From Ricordea florida (Eukaryota; Cnidaria; Anthozoa; Corallimorpharia; Ricordeidae): DNA of 64,000 nucleotides. Below, piece after piece: positions 845 to 60,302 of this stretch. The notes beneath the pieces were generated by a model that was not told where the DNA came from, did no database searches, and saw nothing but the letters and a program-made list of their open reading frames with translations. The DNA lies in assembly GCA_949710005.1 (NCBI GenBank), contig OX453274.1:21648585-21712584 (forward strand), read 5' to 3'. The translations under genes were made by a program, and so were the position numbers. Every line of letters starts with the position of its first letter. Within the stretch, counting starts at the first letter, position 1.

Positions 845-3580
845 AGTTGTTCTATGATATCTTGGCTTGGATAATCTTTGCAATTCCAAAAGTTAGCAGA
901 TTTGTACAAGTAGGACAGGGCATTATCTATGCAGAAAATCAGATATTTCGTAATTTGCGATCTTATTGAGTTTTGACTGTAAAGATATTGACTTAAGGCA
1001 GCTAAATCTAGAGCAGACGGTTTAGAGTACTAAAGTTCATGTAATCAGAGCTCATTACACGAATTAGTTATCAATATTCCATTTTCACCATGTTGTAGCA
1101 TATGAAATGAACTTTAAAACGCACTTTATCCCGTGTTTGTACTTACTCTAGAAGCTGAGATACGATACCTGCAGCTGGCTGCCAAGAAACTCGACCTGAC
1201 TGATTTTGGTGAAAATATATTATAAGAGATTGTATGAGCAGGAGGACCGTCATTTAGGGGGGTAAGTTATAGAATCATTTCGAATCTTTTCTATACATGT
1301 TTTAGTGTGGTGTGCAGTAAAGTTTATTTTGCGATGAAAATTTTGATTGTAACGATTCGATTTCAATCAGAATTCAAGATCAGACTATTTGTTAGTACGC
1401 ATGCGTGATTCAGACCAAAGCGTGGGCCCCTAAAATAAAAGTTGTTCTATGATATCTTGGCTTGGATAATCTTTGCAATTCTAAAAGTTAGCAGATTTGT
1501 ACAAGTAGGACAGGGCATTATCTATGCAGAAAATCAGATATTTCGTAATTTGCGATCTTATTGAGTTTTGACTGTAAAGATATTGACTTAAGGCAGCTAA
1601 ATCTAGAGCAGACGGCTCAGAGAGTACTAAAGTTCATGTAATCAGTGCTCATTACACGAATTAGTTATCAATATTCCATTTTCACCACGTTTTAGCATTT
1701 GAAATGAACTTTAAAACGCACTTTATCCCGTGTTTGTACTTACTCTAGAAGCTGAGATACGATACCTGCAGCTGGCTGCGAAGAAACTCGACCTGACTGA
1801 TTTTGGTGAAAATACATTATAAGAGATTGTATGGGCAGGAGGACCGTCATTTAGGGGGGTAAGTTATAGAATCATTTCGAATCTTTTCTATACATGTTTT
1901 AGTGTGGTGTGCAGTAAAGTTTATTTTGCGATGAAAATTTTGATTGTAACGATTCGATTTCAATCAGAATTCAAGATCAGACTATTTGTTAGTACGCACG
2001 CGTGATTCAGACCAAAGCGTGGGCCCCTAAAATAAAAGTTGTTCTATGATATCTTGGCTTGGATAATCTTTGCAATTCCAAAAGTTAGCAGATTTGTACA
2101 AGTAGGACAGGGCATTATCTATGCAGAAAATCAGATATTTCGTAATTTGCGATCTTATTGAGTTTTGACTGTAAAGATATTGTCTTAAGGCAGCTAAATC
2201 TAGAGCAGACGGCTCAGAGAGTACTAAAGTTCATGTAATCAGTGCTCATTACACGAATTAGTTATCAATATTCCATTTTCACCATGTTGTAGCCTTTGAA
2301 ATGAACTTTAAAACGCACTTTATCCCGTGTTTGTACTTACTCTTGAAGCTGAGATACGATACCTGCAGCTGGCTGCCAAGAAACTCGACCTGACTGATTT
2401 TGGTGAAAATACATTATAAGAGATTGTATGGGCAGGAGGACCGTCATTTAGGGGGGTAAGTTATAGAATCATTTCGAATCTTTTCTATACATGTTTTATT
2501 GTGGTGTGCAGTAAAGTTTATTTTGCGATGAAAATTTTGATTGTAACGATTCGATTTCAATCAGAATTCAAGATCAGACTATTTGTTAGTACGCATGCGT
2601 GATTCAGACCAAAGCGTGGGCCCCTAAAATAAAAGTTGTTCTATGATATCTTGGCTTGGATAATCTTTGCAATTCCAAAAGTAAGCAGAGTTGTACAAGT
2701 AGGACAGGGCATTATCTATGCAGAAAATCAGATATTTCGTAATTTGCGATCTTATTGACTTTTGACTGTAAAGATATTGACTTAAGGCAGCTAAATCTAG
2801 AGCAGACGGCTCAGAGAGTACTAAATTTCATGTAATCAGTGCTGATTACACGAATTAGTTATCAATATTCCATTTTCACCATGTTGTAGCATTTGAAATG
2901 AACTTTAAAACGCACTTTATCCCGTGTTTGTACTTACTCTTGAAGCTGAGATACGATACCTGCAGCTGGCTGCCAAGAAACTCGACCTGACTGATTTTGG
3001 TGAAAATACATTATAAGAGATTGCATGGGCAGGAGGCCCGTCATTTAGGGGGGTAACTTATAGAATCATTTCGAATCTTTTCTATACATGTTTTAGTGTG
3101 GTGTGCAGTAAAGTTTATTTTGCGATGAAAATTTTGATTGTAACGATTCGATTTCAATCAGAATTCAAGATCAGACTATTTGTTAGTACGCATGCGTGAT
3201 TCAGACCAAAGCGTGGGCCCCTAAAATAAAAGTTGTTCTATGATATCTTGGCTTGGATAATCTTTGCAATTCCAAAAGTTAGCAGATTTGTACAAGTAGG
3301 ACAGGGCATTATCTATGCAGAAAATCAGATATTTCGTAATTTGCGATCTTATTGAGTTTTGACTGTAAAGATATTGACTTAAGGCAGCTAAATCTAGAGC
3401 AGACGGCTCAGAGAGTACTAAAGATCATGTAATCAGGGCTCATTACACGAATTAGTTATCAATATTCCATTTTCACCACGTTGTAGCATTTGAAATGAAC
3501 TTTAAAACGCACTTTATCCCGTGTTTGTACTTACTCTAGAAGCTGAGATACGATACCTGCAGCTGGCTGCCAAGAAACTC

Positions 3581-6500
3581 GACCTGACTGATTTTGGTGA
3601 AAATACATTATAAGAGATTCCATGGGCAGGAGGACCGTCTTTTAGGGGGGTAAGTTATAGAATCATTTCGAATCTTTTCTATACATGTTTTAGTGTGGTG
3701 TGCAGTAAAGTTTATTTTGCGATGAAAATTTTGATTGTAACGATTCGATTTCAATCAGAATTCAAGATCAGACTATTTGTTAGTACGCATGCGTGATTCA
3801 GACCAAAGCGTGGGCCCCTAAAATAAAAGTTGTTCTATGATATCTTGGCTTGGATAATCTTTGCAATTCCAAAAGTTAGCAGATTTGTACAAGTAGGACA
3901 GGGCATTATCTATGCAGAAAATCAGATATTTCGTAATTTGCGATCTTATTGAGTTTTGACTGTAAAGATATTGACTTAAGGCAGCTAAATCTAGAGCAGA
4001 CGGCTCAGAGAGTACTAAAGTTCATGTAATCAGTGCTCATTACACGAATTAGTTATCAATATTCCATTTTCACCATGTTGTAGCATTTGAAATGAACTTT
4101 AAAACGCACTTTATCCCGTGTTTGTACTTACTCTTGAAGCTGAGATACGATACCTGCAGCTGGCTGCCAAGAAACTCGACCTGACTGATTTTGGTGAAAA
4201 TACATTATAAGAGATTCCATGGGCAAGAGGACCGTCATTTAGGGGGGTAAGTTATAGAATCATTTCGAATCTTTTCTATACATGTTTTAGTGTGGTGTGC
4301 AGTAAAGTTTATTTTGCGATGAAAATTTTGATTGTAACGATTCGATTTCAATCAGAATTCAAGATCAGACTATTTGTTAGTACGCATGCGTGATTCAGAC
4401 CAAAGCGTGGGCCCCTAAAATAAAAGTTGTTCTATGATATCTTGGCTTGGATAATCTTTGCAATTCCAAAAGTTAGCAGATTTGTAAAAGTAGGACAGGG
4501 CATTATCTATGCAGAAAATCAGATATTTCGTAATTTGCGATCTTATTGAGTTTTGACTGTAAAGATATTGACTTAAGGCAGCTAAATCTAGAGCAGACGG
4601 CTCAGAGAGTACTAAAGTTCATGTAATCAGTGCTCATTACACGAATTAGTTATCAATATTCCATTTTCACCATGTTGTAGCATTTGAAATGAACTTTAAA
4701 ACGCACTTTATCCCGTGTTTGTACTTACTCTAGAAGCTGAGATACGATACCTGCAGCTGGCTGCCAAGAAACTCGACCTGACTGATTTTGGTGAAAATAC
4801 ATTATAAGAGATTGTATGAGCAGGAGGACCGTCATTTAGGGGGGTAAGTTATAGAATCATTTCGAATCTTTTCTATACATGTTTTAGTGTGGTGTGCAGT
4901 AAAGTTTATTTTGCGATGAAAATTTTGATTGTAACGATTCGATTTCAATCAGAATTCAAGATCAGACTATTTGTTAGTACGCATGCGTGATTCAGACCAA
5001 AGCGTGGGCCCCTAAAATAAAAGTTGTTCTATGATATCTTGGCTTGGATAATCTTTGCAATTCCAAAAGTTAGCAGAGTTGTACAAGTAGGACAGGGCAT
5101 TATCTATGCAGAAAATGATATATTTTGTAATATGCGATCTTATTGAGTTTTGACTGTAAAGATATTGACTTAAGGCAGCTAAATCTAGAGCAGACGGCTC
5201 AGAGAGTACTAAAGATCATGTAATCAGTGCTCATTACACGAATTAGTTATCAATATTCCATTTTCACCATGTTGTAGCATTTGAAATGAACTTTAAAACG
5301 CACTTTATCCCGTGTTTGTACTTACTCTAGAAGCTGAGATACGATACCTGCAGCTGGCTGCCAAGAAACTCGACCTGACTGATTTTGGTGAAAATACATT
5401 ATAAGAGATTGTATGGGCAGGAGGACCGTCATTTAGGGGGGTAAGTTATAGAATCATTTCGAATCTTTTCTATACATGTTTTAGTGTGGTGTGCAGTAAA
5501 GTTTATTTTGCGATGAAAATTTTGATTGTAACGATTCGATTTCAATCAGAATTCAAGATCAGACTATTTGTTAGTACGCATGCGTGATTCAGACCAAAGC
5601 GTGGGCCCCTAAAATAAAAGTTGTTCTATGATATCTTGGCTTGGATAATCTTTGCAATTCCAAAAGTTAGCAGATTTGTACAAGTAGGACAGGGCATTAT
5701 CTATGCAGAAAATCAGATATTTCGTAATTTGCGATCTTATTGAGTTTTGACTGTAAAGATATTGACTTAAGGCAGCTAAATCTAGAGCAGACGGCTCAGA
5801 GAGTACTAAAGTTCATGTAATCAGTGCTCATTACACGAATTAGTTATCAATATTCCATTTTCACCATGTTGTAGCATTTGAAATGAACTTTAAAACGCAC
5901 TTTATCCCGTGTTTGTACTTACTCTTGAAGCTGAGATACGATACCTGCAGCTGGCTGCCAAGAAACTCGACCTGACTGATTTTGGTGAAAATACATTATA
6001 AGAGATTCCATGGGCAAGAGGACCGTCATTTAGGGGGGTAAGTTATAGAATCATTTCGAATCTTTTCTATACATGTTTTAGTGTGGTGTGCAGTAAAGTT
6101 TATTTTGCGATGAAAATTTTGATTGTAACGATTCGATTTCAATCAGAATTCAAGATCAGACTATTTGTTAGTACGCATGCGTGATTCAGACCAAAGCGTG
6201 GGCCCCTAAAATAAAAGTTGTTCTATGATATCTTGGCTTGGATAATCTTTGCAATTCCAAAAGTTAGCAGATTTGTAAAAGTAGGACAGGGCATTATCTA
6301 TGCAGAAAATCAGATATTTCGTAATTTGCGATCTTATTGAGTTTTGACTGTAAAGATATTGACTTAAGGCAGCTAAATCTAGAGCAGACGGCTCAGAGAG
6401 TACTAAAGTTCATGTAATCAGTGCTCATTACACGAATTAGTTATCAATATTCCATTTTCACCATGTTGTAGCATTTGAAATGAACTTTAAAACGCACTTT

Positions 6501-7162
6501 ATCCCGTGTTTGTACTTACTCTAGAAGCTGAGATACGATACCTGCAGCTGGCTGCCAAGAAACTCGACCTGACTGATTTTGGTGAAAATACATTATAAGA
6601 GATTGTATGAGCAGGAGGACCGTCATTTAGGGGGGTAAGTTATAGAATCATTTCGAATCTTTTCTATACATGTTTTAGTGTGGTGTGCAGTAAAGTTTAT
6701 TTTGCGATGAAAATTTTGATTGTAACGATTCGATTTCAATCAGAATTCAAGATCAGACTATTTGTTAGTACGCATGCGTGATTCAGACCAAAGCGTGGGC
6801 CCCTAAAATAAAAGTTGTTCTATGATATCTTGGCTTGGATAATCTTTGCAATTCCAAAAGTTAGCAGAGTTGTACAAGTAGGACAGGGCATTATCTATGC
6901 AGAAAATGATATATTTTGTAATATGCGATCTTATTGAGTTTTGACTGTAAAGATATTGACTTAAGGCAGCTAAATCTAGAGCAGACGGCTCAGAGAGTAC
7001 TAAAGTTCATGTAATCAGTGCTCATTACACGAATTAGTTATCAATATTCCATTTTCACCATGTTGTAGCATTTGAAATGAACTTTAAAACGCACTTTATC
7101 CCGTGTTTGTACTTACTCTAGAAGCTGAGATACGATACCTGCAGCTGGCTGCCAAGAAACTC
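3581..7162. repeat. 3-mer HOR x2 (monomers 7-9 and 10-12)
   Basis: A 1791-bp unit occurs twice. Monomers 7 and 10 end in CTCTTGAAG. Monomers 8 and 11 both read CCATGGGCAAGAGG at offset 41 and GTAAAAGT at offset 307, and look identical by eye. Monomers 9 and 12 both read GTATGAGC and carry the linked five-site variant (GAGTTG at offset 302 plus changes at 343, 345, 352 and 358). The main difference between the last pair is AGATCATG in monomer 9 against AGTTCATG in 12. The same trio occurs once in the right block as monomers 85-87, so the second trimer here is a local duplication. Confidence 0.88.
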
Positions 7163-9550
7163 GACCTGACTGATTTTGGTGAAAATACATTATAAGAGAT
7201 TGTATGGGCAGGAGGACCGTCATTTAGGGGGGTAAGTTATAGAATCATTTCGAATCTTTTCTATACATGTTTTAGTGTGGTGTGCAGTAAAGTTTATTTT
7301 GCGATGAAAATTTTGATTGTAACGATTCGATTTCAATCAGAATTCAAGATCAGACTATTTGTTAGTACGCATGCGTGATTCAGACCAAAGCGTGGGCCCC
7401 TAAAATAAAAGTTGTTCTATGATATCTTGGCTTGGATAATCTTTGCAATTCCAAAAGTTAGCAGATTTGTACAGGTAGGACAGGGCATTATCTATGCAGA
7501 AAATCAGATATTTCGTAATTTGCGATCTTATTGAGTTTTAATTGTAAAGATATTGACTTAAGGCAGCTAAATCTAGAGCAGACGGCTCAGAGAGTACTAA
7601 AGTTCATGTAATCAGTGCTCATTACACGAATTAGTTATCAATATTCCATTTTCACCATGTTGTAGCATTTGAAATGAACTTTAAAACGCACTTTATCCCG
7701 TGTTTGTACTTACTCTAGAAGCTGAGATACGATACCTGCAGCTGGCTGCCAAGAAACTCGACCTGACTGATTTTGGTGAAAATACATTATAAGAGATTGT
7801 ATGGGCAGGAGGACCGTCATTTAGGGGGGTAAGTTATAGAATCATTTCGAATCTTTTCTATACATGTTTTAGTGTGGTGTGCAGTAAAGTTTATTTTGCG
7901 ATGAAAATTTTGATTGTAACGATTCGATTTCAATCAGAATTCAAGATCAGACTATTTGTTAGTACGCATGCGTGATTCAGACCAAAGCGTGAACCCCTAA
8001 AATAAAAGTTGTTCTATGATGTCTTGGCTTGGATAATCTTTGCAATTCCAAAAGTTAGCAGATTTGTACAAGTAGGACAGGGCATTATCTATGCAGAAAA
8101 TCAGATATTTCGTAATTTGCGATCTTATTGAGTTTTAACTGTAAAGATATTGACTTAAGGCAGCTAAATCTAGAGCAGACGGCCCAGAGAGTACTAAAGT
8201 TCATGTAATCAGTGCTCATTACACGAATTAGTTATCAATATTCCATTTTCACCATGTTGTAGCATTTGAAATGAACTTTAAAACGCACTTTATCCCGTGT
8301 TTGTACTTACTCTAGAAGCTGAGATACGATACCTGCAGCTGGCTGCCAAGAAACTCGACCTGACTGATTTTGGTGAAAATACATTATAAGAGATTGTATG
8401 GGCAGGAGGACCGTCATTTAGGGGGGTAAGTTATAGAATCATTTCGAATCTTTTCTATACATGTTTTAGTGTGGTGTGCAGTAAAGTTTATTTTGCGATG
8501 AAAATTTTGATTGTAACGATTCGATTTTAATCAGAATTCAAGATCAGACTATTTGTTAGTACGCATGCGTGATTCAGACCAAAGCGTGGGCCCCTAAAAT
8601 AAAAGTTGTTCTATGATATCTTGGCTTGGATAATCTTTGCAATTCCAAAAGTTAGCAGATTTGTACAGGTAGGACAGGGCATTATCTATGCAGAAAATCA
8701 GATATTTCGTAATTTGCGATCTTATTGAGTTTTAATTGTAAAGATATTGACTTAAGGCAGCTAAATCTAGAGCAGACGGCTCAGAGAGTACTAAAGTTCA
8801 TGTAATCAGTGCTCATTACACGAATTAGTTATCAATATTCCATTTTCACCATGTTGTAGCATTTGAAATGAACTTTAAAACGCACTTTATCCCGTGTTTG
8901 TACTTACTCTAGAAGCTGAGATACGATACCTGCAGCTGGCTGCCAAGAAACTCGACCTGACTGATTTTGGTGAAAATACATTATAAGAGATTGTATGGGC
9001 AGGAGGACCGTCATTTAGGGGGGTAAGTTATAGAATCATTTCGAATCTTTTCTATACATGTTTTAGTGTGGTGTGCAGTAAAGTTTATTTTGCGATGAAA
9101 ATTTTGATTGTAACGATTCGATTTCAATCAGAATTCAAGATCAGACTATTTGTTAGTACGCATGCGTGATTCAGACCAAAGCGTGGGCCCCTAAAATAAA
9201 AGTTGTTCTATGATGTCTTGGCTTGGATAATCTTTGCAATTCCAAAAGTTAGCAGATTTGTACAAGTAGGACAGGGCATTATCTATGCAGAAAATCAGAT
9301 ATTTCGTAATTTGCGATCTTATTGAGTTTTAACTGTAAAGATATTGACTTAAGGCAGCTAAATCTAGAGCAGACGGCCCAGAGAGTACTAAAGTTCATGT
9401 AATCAGTGCTCATTACACGAATTAGTTATCAATATTCCATTTTCACCATGTTGTAGCATTTGAAATGAACTTTAAAACGCACTTTATCCCGTGTTTGTAC
9501 TTACTCTAGAAGCTGAGATACGATACCTGCAGCTGGCTGCCAAGAAACTC
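7163..9550. repeat. 2-mer HOR x2 (monomers 13-14 and 15-16)
   Basis: The 1194-bp dimer alternates two monomer types. Monomers 13 and 15 have TACAGGTAGG (offset 308) and TTTTAATTGT (offset 374). Monomers 14 and 16 have GATGTCTTGG (offset 259), TTTTAACTGT and CGGCCCAG (offset 421). Private changes are few: GTGAACCCC in monomer 14 and GATTTTAATC in monomer 15. The same dimer pair occurs at monomers 88-91 (51945-54332). Confidence 0.9.
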
Positions 9551-12500
9551 GACCTGACTGATTTTGGTGAAAATACATTATAAGAGATTGTATGGGCAGG
9601 AGGACCGTCATTTAGGGGGGTAAGTTATAGAATCATTTCGAATCTTTTCTATACATGTTTTAGTGTGGTGTGCAGTAAAGTTTATTTTGCGATGAAAATT
9701 TTGATTGTAACGATTCGATTTCAATCAGAATTCAAGATCAGACTATTTGTTAGTACGCATGCGTGATTCAGACCAAAGCGTGGGCCCCTAAAATAAAAGT
9801 TGTTCTATGATATCTTAGCTTGGATAATCTTTGCAATTCTAAAAGTTAGCAGATTTCTACAAGTAGGACAGGGCATTATCTATGCAGAAAATCAGATATT
9901 TCGTAATTTGCGATCTTATTGAGTTTTGACTGTAAAGATATTGACTTAAGGCAGCTAAATCTAGAGCAGACGGCTCAGAGAGTACTAAAGTTCATGTAAT
10001 CAGTGCTCATTACACGAATTAGTTATCAATATTCCATTTTCACCATGGGTTAGCATTTGAAATGAACTTTAAAACGCACTTTATCCCGTGTTTGTACTTA
10101 CTCTAGAAGCTGAGATACGATACCTGCAGCTGGCTGCCAAGAAACTCGACCTGACTAATTTTGGTGAAAATACATTATAAGAGATTGTATGGGCAGGAGG
10201 ACCGTCATTTAGGGGGGTAAGTTATAGAATCATTTCGAATCTTTTCTATACATGTTTTAGTGTGGTGTGCAGTAAAGTTTATTTTGCGATGAAAATTTTG
10301 ATTGTAACGATTCGATTTCAATCAGAATTCAAAATCAGACTATTTGTTAGTACGCATGCGTGATTCAGACCAAAGCGTGGGCCCCTAAAATAAAAGTTGT
10401 TCTATGATATCTTGGCTTGGATAATCTTTGCAATTCCAAAAGTTAGCAGATTTGTACAAGTAGGACAGGGCATTATCTATGCAGAAAATCAGATATTTCG
10501 TAATTTGCGATCTTATTGAGTTTTGACTGTAAAGATATTGACTTAAGGCAGCTAAATCTAGAGCAGACGGCTCAGAGAGTACTAAAGTTCATGTAATCCG
10601 TGCTCATTACACGAATTAGTTATCAATATTCCATTTTCACCATGTTGTAGCATTTGAAATGAACTTTAAAACGCACTTTATCCCGTATTTGTACTTACTC
10701 TAGAAGCTGAGATACGATACCTGCAGCTGGCTGCCAAGAAACTCGACCTGACTGATTTTGGTGAAAATACATTATAAGAGATTGTATGGGCAGGAGGACC
10801 GTCATTTAGGGGGGTAAGTTATAGAATCATTTCGAATCTTTTCTATACATGTTTTAGTGTGGTGTGCAGTAAAGTTTATTTTGCGATGAAAATTTTGATT
10901 GTAACGATTCGATTTCAATCAGAATTCAAGATCAGACTATTTGTTAGTACGCATGCGTGATTCAGACCAAAGCGTGGGCCCCTAAAATAAAAGTTGTTCT
11001 ATGATATCTTGGCTTGGATAATCTTTGCAATTCCAAAAGTTAGCAGAGTTGTACAAGTAGGACAGGGCATTATCTATGCAGAAAATGATATATTTTGTAA
11101 TATGCGATCTTATTGAGTTTTGACTGTAAAGATATTGACTTAAGGCAGCTAAATCTAGAGCAGACGGCTCAGAGAGTACTAAAGTTCATGTAATCAGTGC
11201 TCATTACACGAATTAGTTATCAATATTCCATTTTCACCATGGGTTAGCATTTGAAATGAACTTTAAAACGCACTTTATCCCGTGTTTGTACTTACTCTAG
11301 AAGCTGAGATACGATACCTGCAGCTGGCTGCCAAGAAACTCGACCTGACTGATTTTGGTGAAAATACATTATAAGAGATTGTATGGGCAGGAGGACCGTC
11401 ATTTAGGGGGGTAAGTTATAGAATCATTTCGAATCTTTTCTATACATGTTTTAGTGTGGTGTGCAGTAAAGTTTATTTTGCGATGAAAATTTTGATTGTA
11501 ACGATTCGATTTCAATCAGAATTTAAGATCAGACTATTTGTTAGTACGCATGCGTTATTCAGACCAAAGCGTGGGCCCCTAAAATAAAAGTTGTTCTATG
11601 ATATCTTGGCTTGGATAATCTTTGCAATTCCAAAAGTTAGCAGATTTGTAAAAGTAGGACAGGGCATTAACTATGCAGAAAATCAGATATTTCGTAATTT
11701 GCGATCTTATTGAGTTTTGACTGTACAGATATTGACTTAAGGCAGCTAAATCTAGAGCAGACGGCTCAGAGAGTATTAAAGTTCATGTAATCAGTGCTCA
11801 TTACACGAATTAGTTATCAATATTCCATTTTCACCATGTTGTAGCATTTGAAATGAACTTTAAAACGCACTTTATCCCGTGTTTGTACTTACTCTAGAAG
11901 CTGAGATACGATACCTGCAGCTGGCTGCCAAGAAACTCGACCTGACTGATTTTGGTGAAAATACATTATAAGAGATTGTATGGGCAGGAGGACCGTCATT
12001 TAGGGGGGTAAGTTATAGAATCATTTCGAATCTTTTCTATACATGTTTTAGTGTGGTGTGCAGTAAAGTTTATTTTGCGATGAGAATTTTGATTGTAACG
12101 ATTCGATTTCAATCAGAATTCAAGATCAGACTATTTGTTAGTACGCATGCGTGATTCAGACCAAAGCGTGGGCCCCTAAAATAAAAGTTGTTCTATGATA
12201 TCTTGGCTTGGATAATCTTTGCAATTCCAAAAGTTAGCAGAGTTGTACAAGTAGGACAGGGCATTATCTATGCAGAAAATGATATATTTTGTAATATGCG
12301 ATCTTATTGAGTTTTGACTGTAAAGATATTGACTTAAGGCAGCTAAATCTAGAGCAGAAGGCTCAGAGAGTACTAAAGTTCATGTAATCAGTGCTCATTA
12401 CACGAATTAGTTATCAATATTCCATTTTCACCATGGGTTAGCATTTGAAATGAACTTTAAAACGCACTTTATCCCGTGTTTGTACTTACTCTAGAAGCTG

Positions 12501-47168: not shown

Positions 47169-50100
47169 GACCTGACTGATTTTGGTGAAAATACATTATA
47201 AGAGATTGTACGGGCAGGAGGACCGTCATTTAGGGGGGTAAGTTATAGAATCATTTCGAATCTTTTCTATACATGTTTTAGTGTGGTGTGCAGTAAAGTT
47301 TATTTTGCGATGAAAATTTTGATTGTAACGATTCGATTTCAATCAGAATTCAAGATCAGACTATTTGTTAGTACGCATGCGTGATTCAGACCAAAGCGTG
47401 GGCCCCTAAAATAAAAGTTGTTCTATGATATCTTGGCTTGGATAATCTTTGCAATTCCAAAAGTTAGCAGATTTGTACAAGTAGGACAGGGCATTATCTA
47501 TGCAGAAAATCAGATATTTCGTAATTTGCGATCTTATTGAGTTTTGACTGTAAAGATATTGACTTAAGGCAGCTAAATCTAGAGCAGACGGCTCAGAGAG
47601 TACTAAAGATCATGTAATCAGTGCTCATTACACGAATTAGTTATCAATATTCCATTTTCACCACGTTGTAGCATTTGAAATGAACTTTAAAACGCACTTT
47701 ATCCCGTGTTTGTACTTACTCTAGAAGCTGAGATACGATACCTGCAGCTGGCTGCCAAGAAACTCGACCTGACTGATTTTGGTGAAAATACATTATAAGA
47801 GATTCCATGGGCAGGAGGACCGTCATTTAGGGGGGTAAGTTATAGAATCATTTCGAATCTTTTCTATACATGTTTTAGTGTGGTGTGCAGTAAAGTTTAT
47901 TTTGCGATGAAAATTTTGATTGTAACGATTCGATTTCAATCAGAATTCAAGATCAGACTATTTGTTAGTACGCATGCGTGATTCAGACCAAAGCGTGGGC
48001 CCCTAAAATAAAAGTTGTTCTATGATATCTTGGCTTGGATAATCTTTGCAATTCCAAAAGTTAGCAGATTTGTACAAGTAGGACAGGGCATTATCTATGC
48101 AGAAAATCAGATATTTCGTAATTTGCGATCTTATTGAGTTTTAACTGTAAAGATATTGACTTAAGGCAGCTAAATCTAGAGCAGACGGCTCAGAGAGTAC
48201 TAAAGTTCATGTAATCAGTGCTCATTACACGAATTAGTTATCAATATTCCATTTTCACCATGTTGTAGCATTTGAAATGAACTTTAAAACGCACTTTATC
48301 CCGTGTTTGTACTTACTCTTGAAGCTGAGATACGATACCTGCAGCTGGCTGCCAAGAAACTCGACCTGACTGATTTTGGTGAAAATACATTATAAGAGAT
48401 TGTAAAGGCAGGAGGACCGTCATTTAGGGGGGTAAGTTATAGAATCATTTCGAATCTTTTCTATACATGTTTTAGTGTGGTGTGCAGTAAAGTTTATTTT
48501 GCGATGAAAATTTTGATTGTAACGATTCGATTTCAATCAGAATTCAAGATCAGACTATTTGTTAGTACGCATGCGTGATTCAGACCAAAGCGTGGGCCCC
48601 TAAAATAAAAGTTGTTCTATGATATCTTGGCTTGGATAATCTTTGCAATTCCAAAAGTAAGCAGATTTGTACAAGTAGGACAGGGCATTATCTATGCAGA
48701 AAATCAGATATTTCGTAATTTGCGATCTTATTGAGTTTTGACTGTAAAGATATTGACTTAAGGCAGCTAAATCTAGAGCAGACGGCTCAGAGAGTACTAA
48801 AGTTCATGTAATCAGTGCTCATTACACGAATTAGTTATCAATATTCCATTTTCACCATGTTGTAGCATTTGAAATGAACTTTAAAACGCACTTTATCCCG
48901 TGTTTGTACTTACTCTAGAAGCTGAGATACGATACCTGCAGCTGGCTGCCAAGAAACTCGACCTGACTGATTTTGGTGAAAATACATTATAAGAGATTGT
49001 ATGAGCAGGAGGACCGTCATTTAGGGGGGTAAGTTATAGAATCATTTCGAATCTTTTCTATACATGTTTTAGTGTGGTGTGCAGTAAAGTTTATTTTGCG
49101 ATGAAAATTTTGATTGTAACGATTCGATTTCAATCAGAATTCAAGATCAGACTATTTGTTAGTACGCATGCGTGATTCAGACCAAAGCGTGGGCCCCTAA
49201 AATAAAAGTTGTTCTATGATATCTTGGCTTGGATAATCTTTGCAATTCCAAAAGTTAGCAGAGTTGTACAAGTAGGACAGGGCATTATCTATGCAGAAAA
49301 TGATATGTTTTGTAATATGCGATCTTATTGAGTTTTGACTGTAAAGATATTGACTTAAGGCAGCTAAATCTAGAGCAGACGGCTCAGAGAGTACTAAAGT
49401 TCATGTAATCAGTGCTCATTACACGAATTAGTTATCAATATTCCATTTTCACCATGTTGTAGCATTTGAAATGAACTTTAAAACGCACTTTATCCCGTGT
49501 TTGTACTTACTCTAGAAGCTGAGATACGATACCTGCAGCTGGCTGCCAAGAAACTCGACCTGACTGATTTTGGTGAAAATACATTATAAGAGATTGTATG
49601 GGCAGGAGGACCGTCATTTAGGGGGGTAAGTTATAGAATCATTTCGAATCTTTTCTATACATGTTTTAGTGTGGTGTGCAGTAAAGTTTATTTTGCGATG
49701 AAAATTTTGATTGTAACGATTCGATTTCAATCAGAATTCAAGATCAGACTATTTGTTAGTACGCATGCGTGATTCAGACCAAAGCGTGGGCCCCTAAAAT
49801 AAAAGTTGTTCTATGATATCTTGGCTTGGATAATCTTTGCAATTCCAAAAGTTAGCAGATTTGTACAGGTAGGACAGGGCATTATCTATGCAGAAAATCA
49901 GATATTTCGTAATTTGCGATCTTATTGAGTTTTGACTGTAAAGATATTGACTTAAGGCAGCTAAATCTAGAGCAGACGGCTCAGAGAGTACTAAAGATCA
50001 TGTAATCAGTGCTCATTACACGAATTAGTTATCAATATTCCATTTTCACCACGTTGTAGCATTTGAAATGAACTTTAAAACGCACTTTATCCCGTGTTTG

Positions 50101-51944
50101 TACTTACTCTAGAAGCTGAGATACGATACCTGCAGCTGGCTGCCAAGAAACTCGACCTGACTGATTTTGGTGAAAATACATTATAAGAGATTCCATGGGC
50201 AGGAGGACCGTCATTTAGGGGGGTAAGTTATAGAATCATTTCGAATCTTTTCTATACATGTTTTAGTGTGGTGTGCAGTAAAGTTTATTTTGCGATGAAA
50301 ATTTTGATTGTAACGATTCGATTTCAATCAGAATTCAAGATCAGACTATTTGTTAGTACGCATGCGTGATTCAGACCAAAGCGTGGGCCCCTAAAATAAA
50401 AGTTGTTCTATGATATCTTGGCTTGGATAATCTTTGCAATTCCAAAAGTTAGCAGATTTGTACAAGTAGGACAGGGCATTATCTATGCAGAAAATCAGAT
50501 ATTTCGTAATTTGCGATCTTATTGAGTTTTGACTGTAAAGATATTGACTTAAGGCAGCTAAATCTAGAGCAGACGGCTCAGAGAGTACTAAAGTTCATGT
50601 AATCAGTGCTCATTACACGAATTAGTTATCAATATTCCATTTTCACCATGTTGTAGCATTTGAAATGAACTTTAAAACGCACTTTATCCCGTGTTTGTAC
50701 TTACTCTTGAAGCTGAGATACGATACCTGCAGCTGGCTGCCAAGAAACTCGACCTGACTGATTTTGGTGAAAATACATTATAAGAGATTCCATGGGCAAG
50801 AGGACCGTCATTTAGGGGGGTAAGTTATAGAATCATTTCGAATCTTTTCTATACATGTTTTAGTGTGGTGTGCAGTAAAGTTTATTTTGCGATGAAAATT
50901 TTGATTGTAACGATTCGATTTCAATCAGAATTCAAGATCAGACTATTTGTTAGTACGCATGCGTGATTCAGACCAAAGCGTGGGCCCCTAAAATAAAAGT
51001 TGTTCTATGATATCTTGGCTTGGATAATCTTTGCAATTCCAAAAGTTAGCAGATTTGTACAAGTAGGACAGGGCATTATCTATGCAGAAAATCAGATATT
51101 TCGTAATTTGCGATCTTATTGAGTTTTGACTGTAAAGATATTGACTTAAGGCAGCTAAATCTAGAGCAGACGGCTCAGAGAGTACTAAAGTTCATGTAAT
51201 CAGTGCTCATTACACGAATTAGTTATCAATATTCCATTTTCACCATGTTGTAGCATTTGAAATGAACTTTAAAACGCACTTTATCCCGTGTTTGTACTTA
51301 CTCTAGAAGCTGAGATACGATACCTGCAGCTGGCTGCCAAGAAACTCGACCTGACTGATTTTGGTGAAAATACATTATAAGAGATTGTATGAGCAGGAGG
51401 ACCGTCATTTAGGGGGGTAAGTTATAGAATCATTTCGAATCTTTTCTATACATGTTTTAGTGTGGTGTGCAGTAAAGTTTATTTTGCGATGAAAATTTTG
51501 ATTGTAACGATTCGATTTCAATCAGAATTCAAGATCAGACTATTTGTTAGTACGCATGCGTGATTCAGACCAAAGCGTGGGCCCCTAAAATAAAAGTTGT
51601 TCTATGATATCTTGGCTTGGATAATCTTTGCAATTCCAAAAGTTAGCAGAGTTGTACAAGTAGGACAGGGCATTATCTATGCAGAAAATGATATGTTTTG
51701 TAATATGCGATCTTATTGAGTTTTGACTGTAAAGATATTGACTTAAGGCAGCTAAATCTAGAGCAGACGGCTCAGAGAGTACTAAAGTTCATGTAATCAG
51801 TGCTCATTACACGAATTAGTTATCAATATTCCATTTTCACCATGTTGTAGCATTTGAAATGAACTTTAAAACGCACTTTATCCCGTGTTTGTACTTACTC
51901 TAGAAGCTGAGATACGATACCTGCAGCTGGCTGCCAAGAAACTC
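47169..51944. repeat. 4-mer x2 in the right block (monomers 80-83 and 84-87)
   Basis: Monomers 80 and 84 share AAGATCATG and CACCACGTTG. 81 and 85 share CCATGG at offset 40 and CTCTTGAAG. 83 and 87 share GTATGAGC and the five-site variant in a special form, GATATGTTTTG, seen nowhere else. Monomers 82 and 86 differ (GTAAAGGC and GTAAGCAG in 82, CCATGGGCAAG in 86), so the duplication is older or was edited there. Monomers 84-87 correspond to left-block monomers 6-9; 80-83 have no separate partner there. Confidence 0.82.
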
Positions 51945-54332
51945 GACCTGACTGATTTTGGTGAAAATACATTATAAGAGATTGTATGGGCAGGAGGACC
52001 GTCATTTAGGGGGGTAAGTTATAGAATCATTTCGAATCTTTTCTATACATGTTTTAGTGTGGTGTGCAGTAAAGTTTATTTTGCGATGAAAATTTTGATT
52101 GTAACGATTCGATTTCAATCAGAATTCAAGATCAGACTATTTGTTAGTACGCATGCGTGATTCAGACCAAAGCGTGGGCCCCTAAAATAAAAGTTGTTCT
52201 ATGATATCTTGGCTTGGATAATCTTTGCAATTCCAAAAGTTAGCAGATTTGTACAGGTAGGACAGGGCATTATCTATGCAGAAAATCAGATATTTCGTAA
52301 TTTGCGATCTTATTGAGTTTTAATTGTAAAGATATTGACTTAAGGCAGCTAAATCTAGAGCAGACGGCTCAGAGAGTACTAAAGTTCATGTAATCAGTGC
52401 TCATTACACGAATTAGTTATCAATATTCCATTTTCACCATGTTGTAGCATTTGAAATGAACTTTAAAACGCACTTTATCCCGTGTTTGTACTTACTCTAG
52501 AAGCTGAGATACGATACCTGCAGCTGGCTGCCAAGAAACTCGACCTGACTGATTTTGGTGAAAATACATTATAAGAGATTGTATGGGCAGGAGGACCGTC
52601 ATTTAGGGGGGTAAGTTATAGAATCATTTCGAATCTTTTCTATACATGTTTTAGTGTGGTGTGCAGTAAAGTTTATTTTGCGATGAAAATTTTGATTGTA
52701 ACGATTCGATTTCAATCAGAATTCAAGATCAGACTATTTGTTAGTACGCATGCGTGATTCAGACCAAAGCGTGGGCCCCTAAAATAAAAGTTGTTCTATG
52801 ATGTCTTGGCTTGGATAATCTTTGCAATTCCAAAAGTTAGCAGATTTGTACAAGTAGGACAGGGCATTATCTATGCAGAAAATCAGATATTTCGTAATTT
52901 GCGATCTTATTGAGTTTTAACTGTAAAGATATTGACTTAAGGCAGCTAAATCTAGAGCAGACGGCCCAGAGAGTACTAAAGTTCATGTAATCAGTGCTCA
53001 TTACACGAATTAGTTATCAATATTCCATTTTCACCATGTTGTAGCATTTGAAATGAACTTTAAAACGCACTTTATCCCGTGTTTGTACTTACTCTAGAAG
53101 CTGAGATACGATACCTGCAGCTGGCTGCCAAGAAACTCGACCTGACTGATTTTGGTGAAAATACATTATAAGAGATTGTATGGGCAGGAGGACCGTCATT
53201 TAGGGGGGTAAGTTATAGAATCATTTCGAATCTTTTCTATACATGTTTTAGTGTGGTGTGCAGTAAAGTTTATTTTGCGATGAAAATTTTGATTGTAACG
53301 ATTCGATTTCAATCAGAATTCAAGATCAGACTATTTGTTAGTACGCATGCGTGATTCAGACCAAAGCGTGGGCTCCTAAAATAAAAGTTGTTCTATGATA
53401 TCTTGGCTTGGATAATCTTTGCAATTCCAAAAGTTAGCAGATTTGTACAGGTAGGACAGGGCATTATCTATGCAGAAAATCAGATATTTCGTAATTTGCG
53501 ATCTTATTGAGTTTTAATTGTAAAGATATTGACTTAAGGCAGCTAAATCTAGAGCAGACGGCTCAGAGAGTACTAAAGTTCATGTAATCAGTGCTCATTA
53601 CACGAATTAGTTATCAATATTCCATTTTCACCATGTTGTAGCATTTGAAATGAACTTTAAAACGCACTTTATCCCGTGTTTGTACTTACTCTAGAAGCTG
53701 AGATACGATACCTGCAGCTGGCTGCCAAGAAACTCGACCTGACTGATTTTGGTGAAAATACATTATAAGAGATTGTATGGGCAGGAGGACCGTCATTTAG
53801 GGGGGTAAGTTATAGAATCATTTCGAATCTTTTCTATACATGTTTTAGTGTGGTGTGCAGTAAAGTTTATTTTGCGATGAAAATTTTGATTGTAACGATT
53901 CGATTTCAATCAGAATTCAAGATCAGACTATTTGTTAGTACGCATGCGTGATTCAGACCAAAGCGTGGGCCCCTAAAATAAAAGTTGTTCTATGATGTCT
54001 TGGCTTGGATAATCTTTGCAATTCCAAAAGTTAGCAGATTTGTACAAGTAGGACAGGGCATTATCTATGCAGAAAATCAGATATTTCGTAATTTGCGATC
54101 TTATTGAGTTTTAACTGTAAAGATATTGACTTAAGGCAGCTAAATCTAGAGCAGACGGCCCAGAGAGTACTAAAGTTCATGTAATCAGTGCTCATTACAC
54201 GAATTAGTTATCAATATTCCATTTTCACCATGTTGTAGCATTTGAAATGAACTTTAAAACGCACTTTATCCCGTGTTTGTACTTACTCTAGAAGCTGAGA
54301 TACGATACCTGCAGCTGGCTGCCAAGAAACTC
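51945..54332. repeat. 2-mer HOR x2 (monomers 88-91), counterpart of monomers 13-16
   Basis: Monomers 88 and 90 carry TACAGGTAGG and TTTTAATTGT. Monomers 89 and 91 carry GATGTCTTGG, TTTTAACTGT and CGGCCCAG. The order and phase are the same as at 7163-9550, 44,782 bases upstream. Monomer 90 has a private GGGCTCCTA, while the private changes of monomers 14 and 15 are absent, so each edition has acquired its own mutations since duplication. Confidence 0.92.
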
Positions 54333-57300
54333 GACCTGACTGATTTTGGTGAAAATACATTATAAGAGATTGTATGGGCAGGAGGACCGTCATTTAGGGG
54401 GGTAAGTTATAGAATCATTTCGAATCTTTTCTATACATGTTTTAGTGTGGTGTGCAGTAAAGTTTATTTTGCGATGAAAATTTTGATTGTAACGATTCGA
54501 TTTCAATCAGAATTCAAGATCAGACAATTTGTTAGTACGCATGCGTGATTCAGACCAAAGCGTGGGCCCCTAAAATAAAAGTTGTTCTATGATATCTTAG
54601 CTTGGATAATCTTTGCAATTCTAAAAGTTAGCAGATTTCTACAAGTAGGACAGGGCATTATCTATGCAGAAAATCAGATATTTCGTAATTTGCGATCTTA
54701 TTGAGTTTTGACTGTAAAGATATTGACTTAAGGCAGCTAAATCTAGAGCAGACGGCTCAGAGAGTACTAAAGTTCATGTAATCAGTGCTCATTACACGAA
54801 TTAGTTATCAATATTCCATTTTCACCATGGGTTAGCATTTGAAATGAACTTTAAAACGCACTTTATCCCGTGTTTGTACTTACTCTAGAAGCTGAGATAC
54901 GATACCTGCAGCTGGCTGCCAAGAAACTCGACCTGACTAATTTTGGTGAAAATACATTATAAGAGATTGTATGGGCAGGAGGACCGTCATTTAGGGGGGT
55001 AAGTTATAGAATCATTTCGAATCTTTTCTATACATGTTTTAGTGTGGTGTGCAGTAAAGTTTATTTTGCGATGAAAATTTTGATTGTAACGATTCGATTT
55101 CAATCAGAATTCAAAATCAGACTATTTGTTAGTACGCATGCGTGATTGAGACCAAAGCGTGGGCTCCTAAAATAAAAGTTGTTCTATGATATCTTGGCTT
55201 GGATAATCTTTGCAATTCCAAAAGTTAGCAGATTTGTACAAGTAGGACAGGGCATTATCTATGCAGAAAATCAGATATTTCGTAATTTGCGATCTTATTG
55301 AGTTTTGACTGTAAAGATATTGACTTAAGGCAGCTAAATCTAGAGCAGACGGCTCAGAGAGTACTAAAGTTCATGTAATCCGTGCTCATTACACGAATTA
55401 GTTATCAATATTCCATTTTCACCATGTTGTAGCATTTGAAATGAACTTTAAAACGCACTTTATCCCGTGTTTGTACTTACTCTAGAAGCTGAGATACGAT
55501 ACCTGCAGCTGGCTGCCAAGAAACTCGACCTGACTGATTTTGGTGAAAATACATTATAAGAGATTGTATGAGCAGGAGGACCGTCATTTAGGGGGGTAAG
55601 TTATAGAATCATTTCGAATCTTTTCTATACATGTTTTAGTGTGGTGTGCAGTAAAGTTTATTTTGCGATGAAAATTTTGATTGTAACGATTCGATTTCAA
55701 TCAGAATTCAAGATCAGACTATTTGTTAGTACGCATGCGTGATTCAGACCAAAGCGTGGGCCCCTAAAATAAAAGTTGTTCTATGATATCTTGGCTTGGA
55801 TAATCTTTGCAATTCCAAAAGTTAGCAGAGTTGTACAAGTAGGACAGGGCATTATCTATGCAGAAAATGATATATTTTGTAATATGCGATCTTATTGAGT
55901 TTTGACTGTAAAGATATTGACTTAAGGCAGCTAAATCTAGAGCAGACGGCTCAGAGAGTACTAAAGTTCATGTAATCAGTGCTCATTACACGAATTAGTT
56001 ATCAATATTCCATTTTCACCATGGGTTAGCATTTGAAATGAACTTTAAAACGCACTTTATCCCGTGTTTGTACTTACTCTAGAAGCTGAGATACGATACC
56101 TGCAGCTGGCTGCCAAGAAACTCGACCTGACTGATTTTGGTGAAAATACATTATAAGAGATTGTATGGGCAGGAGGACCGTCATTTAGGGGGGTAAGTTA
56201 TAGAATCATTTCGAATCTTTTCTATACATGTTTTAGTGTGGTGTGCAGTAAAGTTTATTTTGCGATGAAAATTTTGATTGTAACGATTCGATTTCAATCA
56301 GAATTTAAGATCAGACTATTTGTTAGTACGCATGCGTTATTCAGACCAAAGCGTGGGCCCCTAAAATAAAAGTTGTTCTATGATATCTTGGCTTGGATAA
56401 TCTTTGCAATTCCAAAAGTTAGCAGATTTGTAAAAGTAGGACAGGGCATTAACTATGCAGAAAATCAGATATTTCGTAATTTGCGATCTTATTGAGTTTT
56501 GACTGTACAGATATTGACTTAAGGCAGCTAAATCTAGAGCAGACGGCTCAGAGAGTATTAAAGTTCATGTAATCAGTGCTCATTACACGAATTAGTTATC
56601 AATATTCCATTTTCACCATGTTGTAGCATTTGAAATGAACTTTAAAACGCACTTTATCCCGTGTTTGTACTTACTCTAGAAGCTGAGATACGATACCTGC
56701 AGCTGGCTGCCAAGAAACTCGACCTGACTGATTTTGGTGAAAATACATTATAAGAGATTGTATGGGCAGGAGGACCGTCATTTAGGGGGGTAAGTTATAG
56801 AATCATTTCGAATCTTTTCTATACATGTTTTAGTGTGGTGTGCAGTAAAGTTTATTTTGCGATGAAAATTTTGATTGTAACGATTCGATTTCAATCAGAA
56901 TTCAAGATCAGACTATTTGTTAGTACGCATGCGTGATTGAGACCAAAGCGTGGGCCCCTAAAATAAAAGTTGTTCTATGATATCTTGGCTTGGATAATCT
57001 TTGCAATTCCAAAAGTTAGCAGATTTGTACAGGTAGGACAGGGCATTATCTATGCAGAAAATCAGATATTTCGTAATTTGCGATCTTATTGAGTTTTGAC
57101 TGTAAAGATATTGACTTAAGGCAGCTAAATCTAGAGCAGACGGCTCAGAGAGTACTAAAGTTCATGTAATCAGTGCTCATTACACGAATTAGTTATCAAT
57201 ATTCCATTTTCACCATGGGTTAGCATTTGAAATGAACTTTAAAACGCACTTTATCCCGTGTTTGTACTTACTCTAGAAGCTGAGATACGATACCTGCAGC

Positions 57301-57914
57301 TGGCTGCCAAGAAACTCGACCTGACTGATTTTGGTGAAAATACATTATAAGAGATTGTATGGGCAGGAGGACCGTCATTTAGGGGGGTAAGTTATAGAAT
57401 CATTTCGAATCTTTTCTATACATGTTTTAGTGTGGTGTGCAGTAAAGTTTATTTTGCGATGAAAATTTTGATTGTAACGATTCGATTTCAATCAGAATTT
57501 AAGATCAGACTATTTGTTAGTACGCATGCGTTATTCAGACCAAAGCGTGGGCCCCTAAAATAAAAGTTGTTCTATGATATCTTGGCTTGGATAATCTTTG
57601 CAATTCCAAAAGTTAGCAGATTTGTAAAAGTAGGACAGGGCATTAACTATGCAGAAAATCAGATATTTCGTAATTTGCGATCTTATTGAGTCTTGACTGT
57701 ACAGATATTGACTTAAGGCAGCTAAATCTAGAGCAGACGGCTCAGAGAGTATTAAAGTTCATGTAATCAGTGCTCATTACACGAATTAGTTATCAATATT
57801 CCATTTTCACCATGTTGTAGCATTTGAAATGAACTTTAAAACGCACTTTATCCCGTGTTTGTACTTACTCTAGAAGCTCAGATACGATACCTGCAGCTGG
57901 CTGCCAAGAAACTC
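54333..57914. repeat. Monomers 92-97, counterpart of monomers 17-22
   Basis: Monomers 92, 93, 94, 95 and 97 repeat the rare markers of 17, 18, 19, 20 and 22: TTCTAAAAG with TTTCTACAAG; CTGACTAATT with TAATCCGTG; the five-site variant with CCATGGGTTAG; and GAATTTAAG with GCGTTATTC and CATTAACTATG. Monomer 96 differs from 21: it has TGATTGAGACC, TACAGGTAGG and no five-site variant, but keeps CCATGGGTTAG. Other differences include GACAATTTG in 92, GATTGAG and GGCTCC in 93, GTATGAGC in 94, and GAGTCTTGAC and GCTCAGATAC in 97. These make the two editions clearly more diverged than the two M2 14-mers. Confidence 0.9.
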
Positions 57915-60302
57915 GACCTGACTGATTTTGGTGAAAATACATTATAAGAGATTGTATGGGCAGGAGGACCGTCATTTAGGGGGGTAAGTTATAGAATCAT
58001 TTCGAATCTTTTCTATACATGTTTTAGTGTGGTGTGCAGTAAAGTTTATTTTGCGATGAAAATTTTGATTGTAACGATTCGATTTCAATCAGAATTCAAG
58101 ATCAGACTATTTGTTAGTACGCATGCGTGATTGAGACCAAAGCGTGGGCCCCTAAAATAAAAGTTGTTCTATGATATCTTGGCTTGGATAATCTTTGCAA
58201 TTCCAAAAGTTAGCAGATTTGTACAGGTAGGACAGGGCATTATCTATGCAGAAAATCAGATATTTCGTAATTTGCGATCTTATTGAGTTTTAACTGTAAA
58301 GATATTGACTTAAGGCAGCTAAATCTAGAGCAGACGGCTCAGAGAGTACTAAAGTTCATGTAATCAGTGCTCATTACACGAATTAGTTATCAATATTCCA
58401 TTTTCACCATGTTGTAGCATTTGAAATGAACTTTAAAACGCAATTTATCCCGTGTTTGTACTTACTCTAGAAGCTGAGATACGATACCTGCAGCTGGCTG
58501 CCAAGAAACTCGACCTGACTGATTTTGGTGAAAATACATTATAAGAGATTGTATGAGCAGGAGGACCGTCATTTAGGGGGGTAAGTTATAGAATCATTTC
58601 GAATCTTTTCTATACATGTTTTAGTGTGGTGTGCAGTAAAGTTTATTTTGCGATGAAAATTTTGATTGTAACGATTCGATTTCAATCAGAATTCAAGATC
58701 AGACTATTTGTTAGTACGCATGCGTGATTCAGACCAAAGCGTGGGCCCCTAAAATAAAAGTTGTTCTATGATATCTTGGCTTGGATAATCTTTGCAATTC
58801 CAAAAGTTAGCAGAGTTGTACAAGTAGGACAGGGCATTATCTATGCAGAAAATGATATATTTTGTAATATGCGATCTTATTGAGTTTTGACTGTAAAGAT
58901 ATTGACTTAAGGCAGCTAAATCTAGAGCAGACGGCTCAGAGAGTACTAAAGTTCATGTAATCAGTGCTCATTACACGAATTAGTTATCAATATTCCATTT
59001 TCACCATGGGTTAGCATTTGAAATGAACTTTAAAACGCACTTTATCCCGTGTTTGTACTTACTCTAGAAGCTGAGATACGATACCTGCAGCTGGCTGCCA
59101 AGAAACTCGACCTGACTGATTTTGGTGAAAATACATTATAAGAGATTGTATGGGCAGGAGGACCGTCATTTAGGGGGGTAAGTTATAGAATCATTTCGAA
59201 TCTTTTCTATACATGTTTTAGTGTGGTGTGCAGTAAAGTTTATTTTGCGATGAAAATTTTGATTGTAACGATTCGATTTCAATCAGAATTTAAGATCAGA
59301 CTATTTGTTAGTACGCATGCGTTATTCAGACCAAAGCGTGGGCCCCTAAAATAAAAGTTGTTCTATGATATCTTGGCTTGGATAATCTTTGCAATTCCAA
59401 AAGTTAGCAGATTTGTAAAAGTAGGACAGGGCATTAACTATGCAGAAAATCAGATATTTCGTAATTTGCGATCTTATTGAGTTTTGACTGTACAGATATT
59501 GACTTAAGGCAGCTAAATCTAGAGCAGACGGCTCAGAGAGTATTAAAGTTCATGTAATCAGTGCTCATTACACGAATTAGTTATCAATATTCCATTTTCA
59601 CCATGTTGTAGCATTTGAAATGAACTTTAAAACGCACTTTATCCCGTGTTTGTACTTACTCTAGAAGCTGAGATACGATACCTGCAGCTGGCTGCCAAGA
59701 AACTCGACCTGACTGATTTTGGTGAAAATACATTATAAGAGATTGTATGGGCAGGAGGACCGTCATTTAGGGGGGTAAGTTATAGAATCATTTCGAATCT
59801 TTTCTATACATGTTTTAGTGTGGTGTGCAGTAAAGTTTATTTTGCGATGAAAATTTTGATTGTAACGATTCGATTTCAATCAGAATTCAAGATCAGACTA
59901 TTTGTTAGTACGCATGCGTGATTGAGACCAAAGCGTGGGCCCCTAAAATAAAAGTTGTTCTATGATATCTTGGCTTGGATAATCTTTGCAATTCCAAAAG
60001 TTAGCAGATTTGTACAGGTAGGACAGGGCATTATCTATGCAGAAAATCAGATATTTCGTAATTTGCGATCTTATTGAGTTTTAACTGTAAAGATATTGAC
60101 TTAAGGCAGCTAAATCTAGAGCAGACGGCTCAGAGAGTACTAAAGTTCATGTAATCAGTGCTCATTACACGAATTAGTTATCAATATTCCATTTTCACCA
60201 TGTTGTAGCATTTGAAATGAACTTTAAAACGCACTTTATCCCGTGTTTGTACTTACTCTAGAAGCTGAGATACGATACCTGCAGCTGGCTGCCAAGAAAC
60301 TC
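57915..60302. repeat. Monomers 98-101, right-block extension
   Basis: Monomers 98 and 101 are the same type (TGATTGAGACC, TACAGGTAGG, TTTTAACTGT). Monomer 99 has GTATGAGC, the five-site variant and CCATGGGTTAG, like 94. Monomer 100 has the GAATTTAAG, GCGTTATTC and CATTAACTATG set, like 95 and 97. The run 96-97-98 / 99-100-101 can be read as a 1791-bp trimer x2 in which 96 is chimeric. Monomer 98 occupies the position of monomer 23 relative to the left block and shares TACAGGTAGG and TTTTAACTGT with it, but not CAGATCTTTCG. Confidence 0.83.

Follow-up and report, generated by a model that had tools for sequence, protein, structure and literature searches.

Nested duplications, chimeric monomers and segmental duplications are already known in satellites. 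In maize centromere 10, for example, the parts of the published account used here (PMC4806543) describe adjacent left and right duplicated blocks of CentC, found by pairing monomers at equivalent positions in a tree and dated by their divergence. The same parts describe chimeric monomers, a duplication of a 10-monomer HOR and a separate 22.7-kb segmental duplication, and the authors there favour alternative end-joining repair. At a larger scale, the relevant portion of a study of orangutan alpha satellites (PMC12428378) reports superHORs of 45-84 monomers, among them the 58mer of the Y, with 67 copies, of which 46 are canonical with 0.25% divergence. Models of HOR growth, as outlined in a section of PMC8997354, invoke the duplication of monomer sets by out-of-register exchange or strand invasion. 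The portion of a human centromere study that was considered (PMC11062924) holds nothing decisive for the case described below.

The locus presented here resembles maize CEN10, as that account portrays it in part (PMC4806543), in its adjacent duplicated satellite blocks and its chimeric monomers, but its unit is larger (~50-75 monomers), nested duplications stretch one of its copies and its spacings stay in register. With the orangutan 58mer, as far as the portion cited goes (PMC12428378), it has in common a very long unit within which some monomer types are repeated; unlike the 58mer, it consists of just two copies, which differ in length, and has no period. We conclude that a block composed of three parts, L, M1 and M2, was probably duplicated in tandem, once, inside a 597-bp satellite array, and that the left copy (A) and the right copy (B) were each reshaped locally thereafter.

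The window, by which we mean the whole 64-kb stretch of DNA analysed (C3:21648585-21712584, in an assembly of 538 Mb and 48 contigs), is an uninterrupted head-to-tail array of a 597-bp satellite with 36% GC. It holds 107 full monomers and one partial monomer, and 101 of the 107 measure exactly 597 bp. These monomers form 71 distinct haplotypes with 114 variable columns, and differ pairwise at a mean of 10.2 of 599 aligned columns. Beyond the window, we took in C3:21578585-21648584, C3:21712585-21842584 and C2:18020000-18059999; monomers are numbered from the start of the window, from -57 to 297, with partial monomers at insertions omitted. The C3 array starts at about 21,595,793, carries insertions of 17.3 kb at 21,610,170 and 0.7 kb at 21,825,686, and was traced to 21,827,285, where a 14.9-kb insertion begins; the array is found again from 21,842,195. 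With 355 C3 monomers giving matches of at least 580 bp, it is a satellite DNA array. Between monomers -20 and 255, 256 of the 276 spacings are 597 bp and all 276 lie within 595-599 bp. Genome-wide, 4,586 anchor words were found with at most three mismatches, and the satellite would total about 2.7 Mb if one anchor word represents one monomer.

A protein-coding or RNA-gene origin of the monomer was rejected: monomers 10-12 had no Rfam match up to E 1, the 64-kb window contained no tRNA, the longest open reading frame listed for 5372-6566 was 40 aa, and five short frames gave no Pfam hit and one of them no PDB hit. A bacterial, phage, plasmid or viral source was likewise rejected, as monomers 10-11 had no match in plasmids or phages and one 30-base word had no exact match in viral contigs or in genome contigs. 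Tandem Repeats Finder, for which the longest period handled is 500, gave no row for the array. Judged by titles and abstract openings, none of the papers that turned up in literature searches describes a 597-bp satellite of such a kind. The CENP-B box has the core motif NTTCGNNNNANNCGGGN; the window held no match to it with at most one mismatch on either strand, and the array was not classed as a CENP-B-box satellite.

An earlier note on this DNA had proposed a super-period of about 75 monomers with an offset of 44,782 bases, a value that is correct (5372 to 50154). The best tract on the 75-monomer diagonal pairs monomers 10-20 with 85-95, with 2, 1, 1, 0, 2, 2, 0, 1, 3, 1 and 0 differences (13 in 6.6 kb), and scores 31, where shuffling the monomer order 500 times gave no more than 13. 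The share of near-identical pairs (at most two differences) falls with distance, then recovers to 2.2% at a lag of 73-82 monomers, as against 1.0% at 61-72 and 0.4% at 83-100. The two blocks had been said to follow each other type for type over 13-22 and 88-97. This holds for 13-20 and 88-95 (0-3 differences) and more loosely for 22/97 (3), and fails for 21/96 (9) because monomer 96 is a hybrid. Monomers 21-23 pair with 99-101 at 3, 1 and 2 differences, the right block having three more monomers there. The match claimed between 6-9 and 84-87 stands well for three of the four pairs (1, 1 and 2 differences) and less well for 6/84 (5).

As closest relatives, 13-22 and 88-97 gave same-register reciprocal best hits, ties allowed, in six of ten cases (13/88, 16/91, 17/92, 18/93, 19/94 and 20/95); in 14/89 and 15/90 a neighbouring monomer fits best, since 13-14 are repeated as 15-16. 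In a tree whose bootstrap had not settled, 17 pairs with 92 (support 100/95) and 18 with 93 (97/90), while 20, 22, 95, 97 and 100 cluster together. Three of the markers that the earlier note had described as rare are specific within the C3 stretch examined, TAATCCGTG occurring only in monomers 18 and 93, TTTCTACAAG only in 17 and 92, and CATTAACTATG only in 20, 22, 95, 97 and 100. The fourth, GAATTTAAG, is less so, being present in 11 monomers of that stretch, including -56, -54, -50, -47, 181 and 187.

Read from the window alone, M1 and M2 appeared to be absent after the right block (gapped chain score 0), a reading that was overturned by the sequence beyond it. Monomers 102-107, previously taken as M1-like, resemble M1 only weakly, with 4-7 differences to the nearest M1 monomer. 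Clear M1 copies run onward from monomer 108, on which the window ends, and M2 types return further on. Against types 26, 27, 32, 29 and 30, monomers 108-112 show 1, 1, 2, 2 and 3 differences; against 46, 48, 49 and 50, monomers 120-123 show 1, 0, 0 and 1. M2-like monomers had been predicted to reappear at 73-90 kb, and a search past 64 kb located their markers at window coordinates 74.6-76.4 kb, with TTCAGATTTGAC in monomers 126-127 and GGGTGAGACCC in 128; in the C3 array examined, these three are the only monomers outside copy A to carry them. The duplicated unit thus holds L, M1 and M2 in order, as the earlier note had supposed, and the types come back in order at 108-112, 120-123 and 126-129. 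Beyond the window, the return of M1 is clear and that of M2 fair. Coordinates of the features are collected in the table.

Table. Features of the duplicated satellite blocks, in window coordinates
Feature	Monomers	Position	Strand	Remarks
Copy A (L-M1-M2)	~4-77	1790..45974	+	Private-allele profile; collinear chain with B from monomer 10
Core of L, copy A	10-20	5372..11938	+	13 differences over 11 monomers against 85-95
M1 of copy A	24-50	13730..29856	+	26-30 similar to 108-112; 46, 48, 49, 50 similar to 120-123
11-mer duplication, first copy	25-34	14327..20300	+	Offset 11; differences 0,1,0,6,0,0,0,0,0,1
11-mer duplication, second copy	36-45	20898..26871	+	Offset 11
14-mer duplication, first copy	49-61	28663..36423	+	Offset 14; 5 differences over 13 monomers
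M2 of copy A	51-77	29857..45974	+	Types 74-77 return less exactly as 126-129 (outside window)
Hybrid at 14-mer junction	62	36424..37020	+	Head type 54, tail type 48
14-mer duplication, second copy	63-75	37021..44781	+	Offset 14
A/B junction region	77-78	45378..46571	+	Hybrids; spacing 597
Copy B (L'-M1'-M2')	~78-129	45975..64000 in window	+	Runs on to ~77020 (C3:21725604)
Core of L', copy B	85-95	50154..56720	+	Pairs with 10-20
Hybrid breaking the claimed type-for-type match	96	56721..57317	+	9 differences to 21; two-parent fit 0
Start of M1', copy B		60303..64000	+	102-107 diverged; 108 onward near 26 onward

M2 is the weakest link of the A/B match. Pairs 74/126, 75/127, 76/128 and 77/129 show 1, 5, 2 and 8 differences, which pooled amount to 16 in 2388 bp, or 6.7 per kb, about three times the value for L. 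Monomer 127 lies nearer to 73 (3 differences) than to 75 (5), and 128 nearer to 54 and 68 (1) than to 76 (2); monomers 124-125 of copy B have no close relative. Monomer 129 has 8 differences to 77, yet the two have a common head, with alleles 50C and 80C that occur nowhere else among the 355 monomers. Type 54 is represented in copy B by one monomer (128) and in copy A by five (54, 58, 68, 72 and 76).

Copy A comprises ~74 monomers (44 kb) and copy B ~52 (31 kb). The left edge of A is uncertain by a few monomers (0-6), the private-allele profile peaking for an edge at monomers 3-6. The collinear chain from A to B scored 45.1, and that over M1 and M2 alone scored 19; with monomer order shuffled (60 and 100 times, respectively), the highest score was 8 for each, and with the order reversed both gave 12. 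M2 pairs enter the chain only at a looser setting (T 5, gap 4/0.3). Non-major alleles, counted if present in at least two of the 355 monomers, number 239, of which 40 are private to A and B together and present in both. Fourteen of these are exclusive to L-L', 4 to M1-M1', 10 to M2-M2' and 1 to L-M1', and the other 11 span more than one block pair. Private alleles common to A and each of twelve 52-monomer windows from monomer 130 on number 0-1, and those common to A and each of two upstream windows number 5. As a control, adjacent same-size window pairs starting at monomer 78 or later gave 5-22 private alleles, whereas the A/B position gave 39. Being adjacent and collinear, and having private variants in common, A and B count as a segmental duplication within a satellite array, with an assembly error as an unlikely alternative to that assignment.

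Hybrid monomers sit at or near the junctions: 62 at that of the 14-mer, 77 and 78 at that of A and B; a further one, 96, lies in the right block. Monomer 77 joins a head as in 129 to an M2 tail and is a clear hybrid, its 4 differences falling to 0 with two parents. Monomer 78, which shares 428A/437T with M2 and 557T with L, is a weak one (2 differences to 1). The nearest non-identical relative of monomer 62 is 4 differences away and its two-parent fit leaves 0, and monomer 96 combines a 98/101-type head with a 17/92-type tail without mismatch. In copy B, 127 and 129 also fit two parents better than one. Two-parent monomers are in excess overall, with 19 of 86 divergent monomers explained with at most one mismatch, as against a mean of 3.0 and a maximum of 8 in 20 column shuffles.

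An in-register junction with at least one clear hybrid monomer speaks against the main rival explanation, an assembly artefact in which A and B are two haplotypes of one block placed end to end. So do the first 224 kb of C3 put together, which contain no N bases, and the smaller duplications seen in other parts of the array (offsets 4-29), which show tandem duplication to be common there. The structure alone, however, would look the same in either case, and a divergence of ~0.2% (30 differences in 13.7 kb) together with local differences in repeat number is what alleles of an array would display; we regard such an end-to-end placement as improbable, though deserving of attention.

Hybrid monomers also indicate conversion or exchange, and long-range gene conversion, or the keeping of old monomer types, might have produced the resemblance without any one event that duplicated the unit in full. 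Identity between distant monomers does occur among some consensus-like ones (-15, -14, -2 and 274, 287, 294), and the M2 pairs are more diverged than L and M1. Nevertheless, independent conversions would not preserve collinearity, and the order across L, M1 and M2 is kept over 50-74 monomers. In addition, L (19 differences in 8358 bp) and the M1 pairs (11 in 5373 bp) have diverged to a similar degree between A and B (p = 0.85), the M1 pairs having been picked as best fits (110 with 32, not 28). This explanation strikes us as very unlikely.

A true super-HOR, with a unit of ~75 monomers periodic along the array, is contradicted for this assembly and scarcely credible: although L, M1 and M2 come back in order one time where expected, no third copy shows in monomers 130-297 or -57 to 3, exact matches to one M1 word and one M2 word lie in A and B and nowhere else in the genome, and the copies differ in length. 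Two copies are thus seen in this assembly, without a period, and the super-period of the earlier note survives as a duplication, not as a regularly repeating 45-kb unit. Chained to monomers 130-257 or to the upstream part, A scored 2.0 in each case, and chained to the C2 stretch it scored 0.0. Searched genome-wide as exact words of 27-30 bases, which a diverged third copy would escape, the M2 word had 6 matches (5 in A, 1 in B), the M1 word 5 (4 in A, 1 in B) and a word of one L type 6 (5 in A/B, 1 on C13). When monomers 17-18 were used as a DNA query, 92-93 alone came close behind them (2136 bits), and the next best match, on C9, reached 2105, among the 40 of 344 candidates scored. The local 4-, 6-, 8-, 11- and 14-mers are HORs, while A and B, two copies of unequal length, do not amount to a superHOR.

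The probable tandem duplication can be set in time against the local duplications of copy A. The 11-mer shows 2 differences in 5373 bp without pair 28/39 and 8 in 5970 bp with it (6 in that pair), and the 14-mer shows 5 in 7761 bp. Conversion acts most between neighbours, and neighbouring copies may seem young for that reason. When pooled, the A/B pairs exceed the local duplications, with 30 differences in 13731 bp against 7 in 13134 bp (p = 0.0002), in a comparison that leaves out the M2 pairs, the L pairs before monomer 10, the 11-mer pair 28/39 and B monomers 96-98, 102-107 and 113-119. Counting only differences more than 60 bp apart gives 26 (A/B) against 6 (local; p = 0.0006). By these sequence counts, the 11-mer and 14-mer duplications of A look younger than the A/B split. 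Subtracting the 11-mer and the 14-mer from the 75-monomer offset leaves 50 monomers, near the ~52 of copy B, which suggests an original unit of about 50 monomers, or ~30 kb; 45 kb is probably not its original length.

We infer the following order of events. A single event of homologous exchange, in register but between copies that were misaligned, would have placed a second copy of a block of roughly 50 monomers (~30 kb, L-M1-M2) next to the first; the exchange could have been an unequal sister-chromatid crossover, or else break-induced replication that restarted behind the fork. Each copy would then have been altered by local events on a smaller scale, namely duplications, deletions and conversion. 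Copy A may have gained the 11-mer in M1 and the 14-mer in M2, stretching the distance from L to L' from about 50 to 75 monomers, and copy B may have acquired small changes of its own at 96-98, 104-107 and 113-119. The in-register spacings and junctions argue for homologous exchange or strand invasion and against end joining of random breaks, and homologous out-of-register exchange is the mechanism we favour. Unequal exchange and break-induced replication, as treated in the section of PMC8997354 cited above, predict nearly the same anatomy and are not separated by this sequence.

The locus is a well-resolved case, in which the sizes of the duplications, their likely order and the points of exchange can be read from private variants, and it cautions against taking every long repeat distance in a satellite for a repeat unit. 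We speculate, tentatively, that growth of the array is hierarchical and proceeds by in-register duplications, the product of a rare ~30-kb event being lengthened afterwards by smaller ones; what seem to be long periods would then be sums of duplications of different ages (50 + 14 + 11 = 75) and not units. If this were general, HOR catalogues built on period finding would misread many such blocks. Some of the block markers are specific enough to genotype haplotypes of the array in other individuals.

The two long insertions that interrupt the satellite array on contig C3 (17.3 and 14.9 kb) can be aligned with each other in pieces that total about 9 kb and are mostly 75–85% alike. Six open frames, all from the 17.3-kb insertion, were scanned against Pfam; one contains an integrase core domain (PF00665), and the other five had no match. 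Size, ends and integrase together suggest that the two insertions may be elements of the Maverick/Polinton type. Judged by eye, target duplications of about 5–6 bp are present at both. A third, palindromic insertion of ~0.7 kb has 77.6% self-complementarity and, from its sequence, looks like a foldback or MITE-type element. Of the two BEL/Pao-like frames, one encodes Peptidase_A17, RVT_1 and Integrase_H2C2, and its neighbour DUF1759 and DUF1758.

Features of the C3 array, its left flank and the same 597-bp satellite elsewhere (C2, C3, C9 and C13 are contigs of one assembly)
Feature	Location	Setting	Remarks
Long insertion, 17.3 kb	C3:21610170-21627473	Inside monomer, outside window	Terminal inverted repeats ~800 bp
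Long insertion, 14.9 kb	C3:21827286-21842194	Inside monomer, outside window	Terminal inverted repeats ~405 bp
Insertion, ~0.7 kb	C3:21825686-21826374		Palindrome over nearly full length
Two BEL/Pao-like retrotransposon frames, side by side	C3:21582035-21587962	Left array flank	Domains as given above
Satellite	C3:21.897-21.915 and 21.986-21.999 Mb	Further along C3	Minus strand
Satellite	C2:17.98-18.06 and 24.39-24.66 Mb	Other contig	
Satellite	C9:15.78-15.84 Mb	Other contig	
Satellite	C13:16.387 Mb	Other contig	Basis: single marker word

Downstream of the window, a mid-scale duplication relates monomers 163–168 to 192–197 at an offset of 29 monomers, with 1, 4, 3, 2, 0 and 1 differences between successive pairs. 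Identical consensus-like monomers also occur about 165–185 kb apart in the array (−15, −14 and −2; 274, 287 and 294), reflecting either retention of an old type or long-range homogenisation. Monomers of the C2 stretch that we read differ from C3 monomers at a mean of 16.3 positions, versus 11.1 among C3 monomers; on this sequence comparison, the stretch is a separate satellite subfamily.

Every monomer contains an exon-like stretch (window 541–672, for example), in which TTTGTACTTACTCTAG is followed by AAGCTGAG, a short open frame terminating in ...LDLTDFGENTL* and then AGGGGG|GTAAGT. To the eye, this order resembles an acceptor, exon and donor. The short frame had no match in Pfam or the PDB. 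In some monomers of the L block, allele 557T alters the acceptor-like AG.
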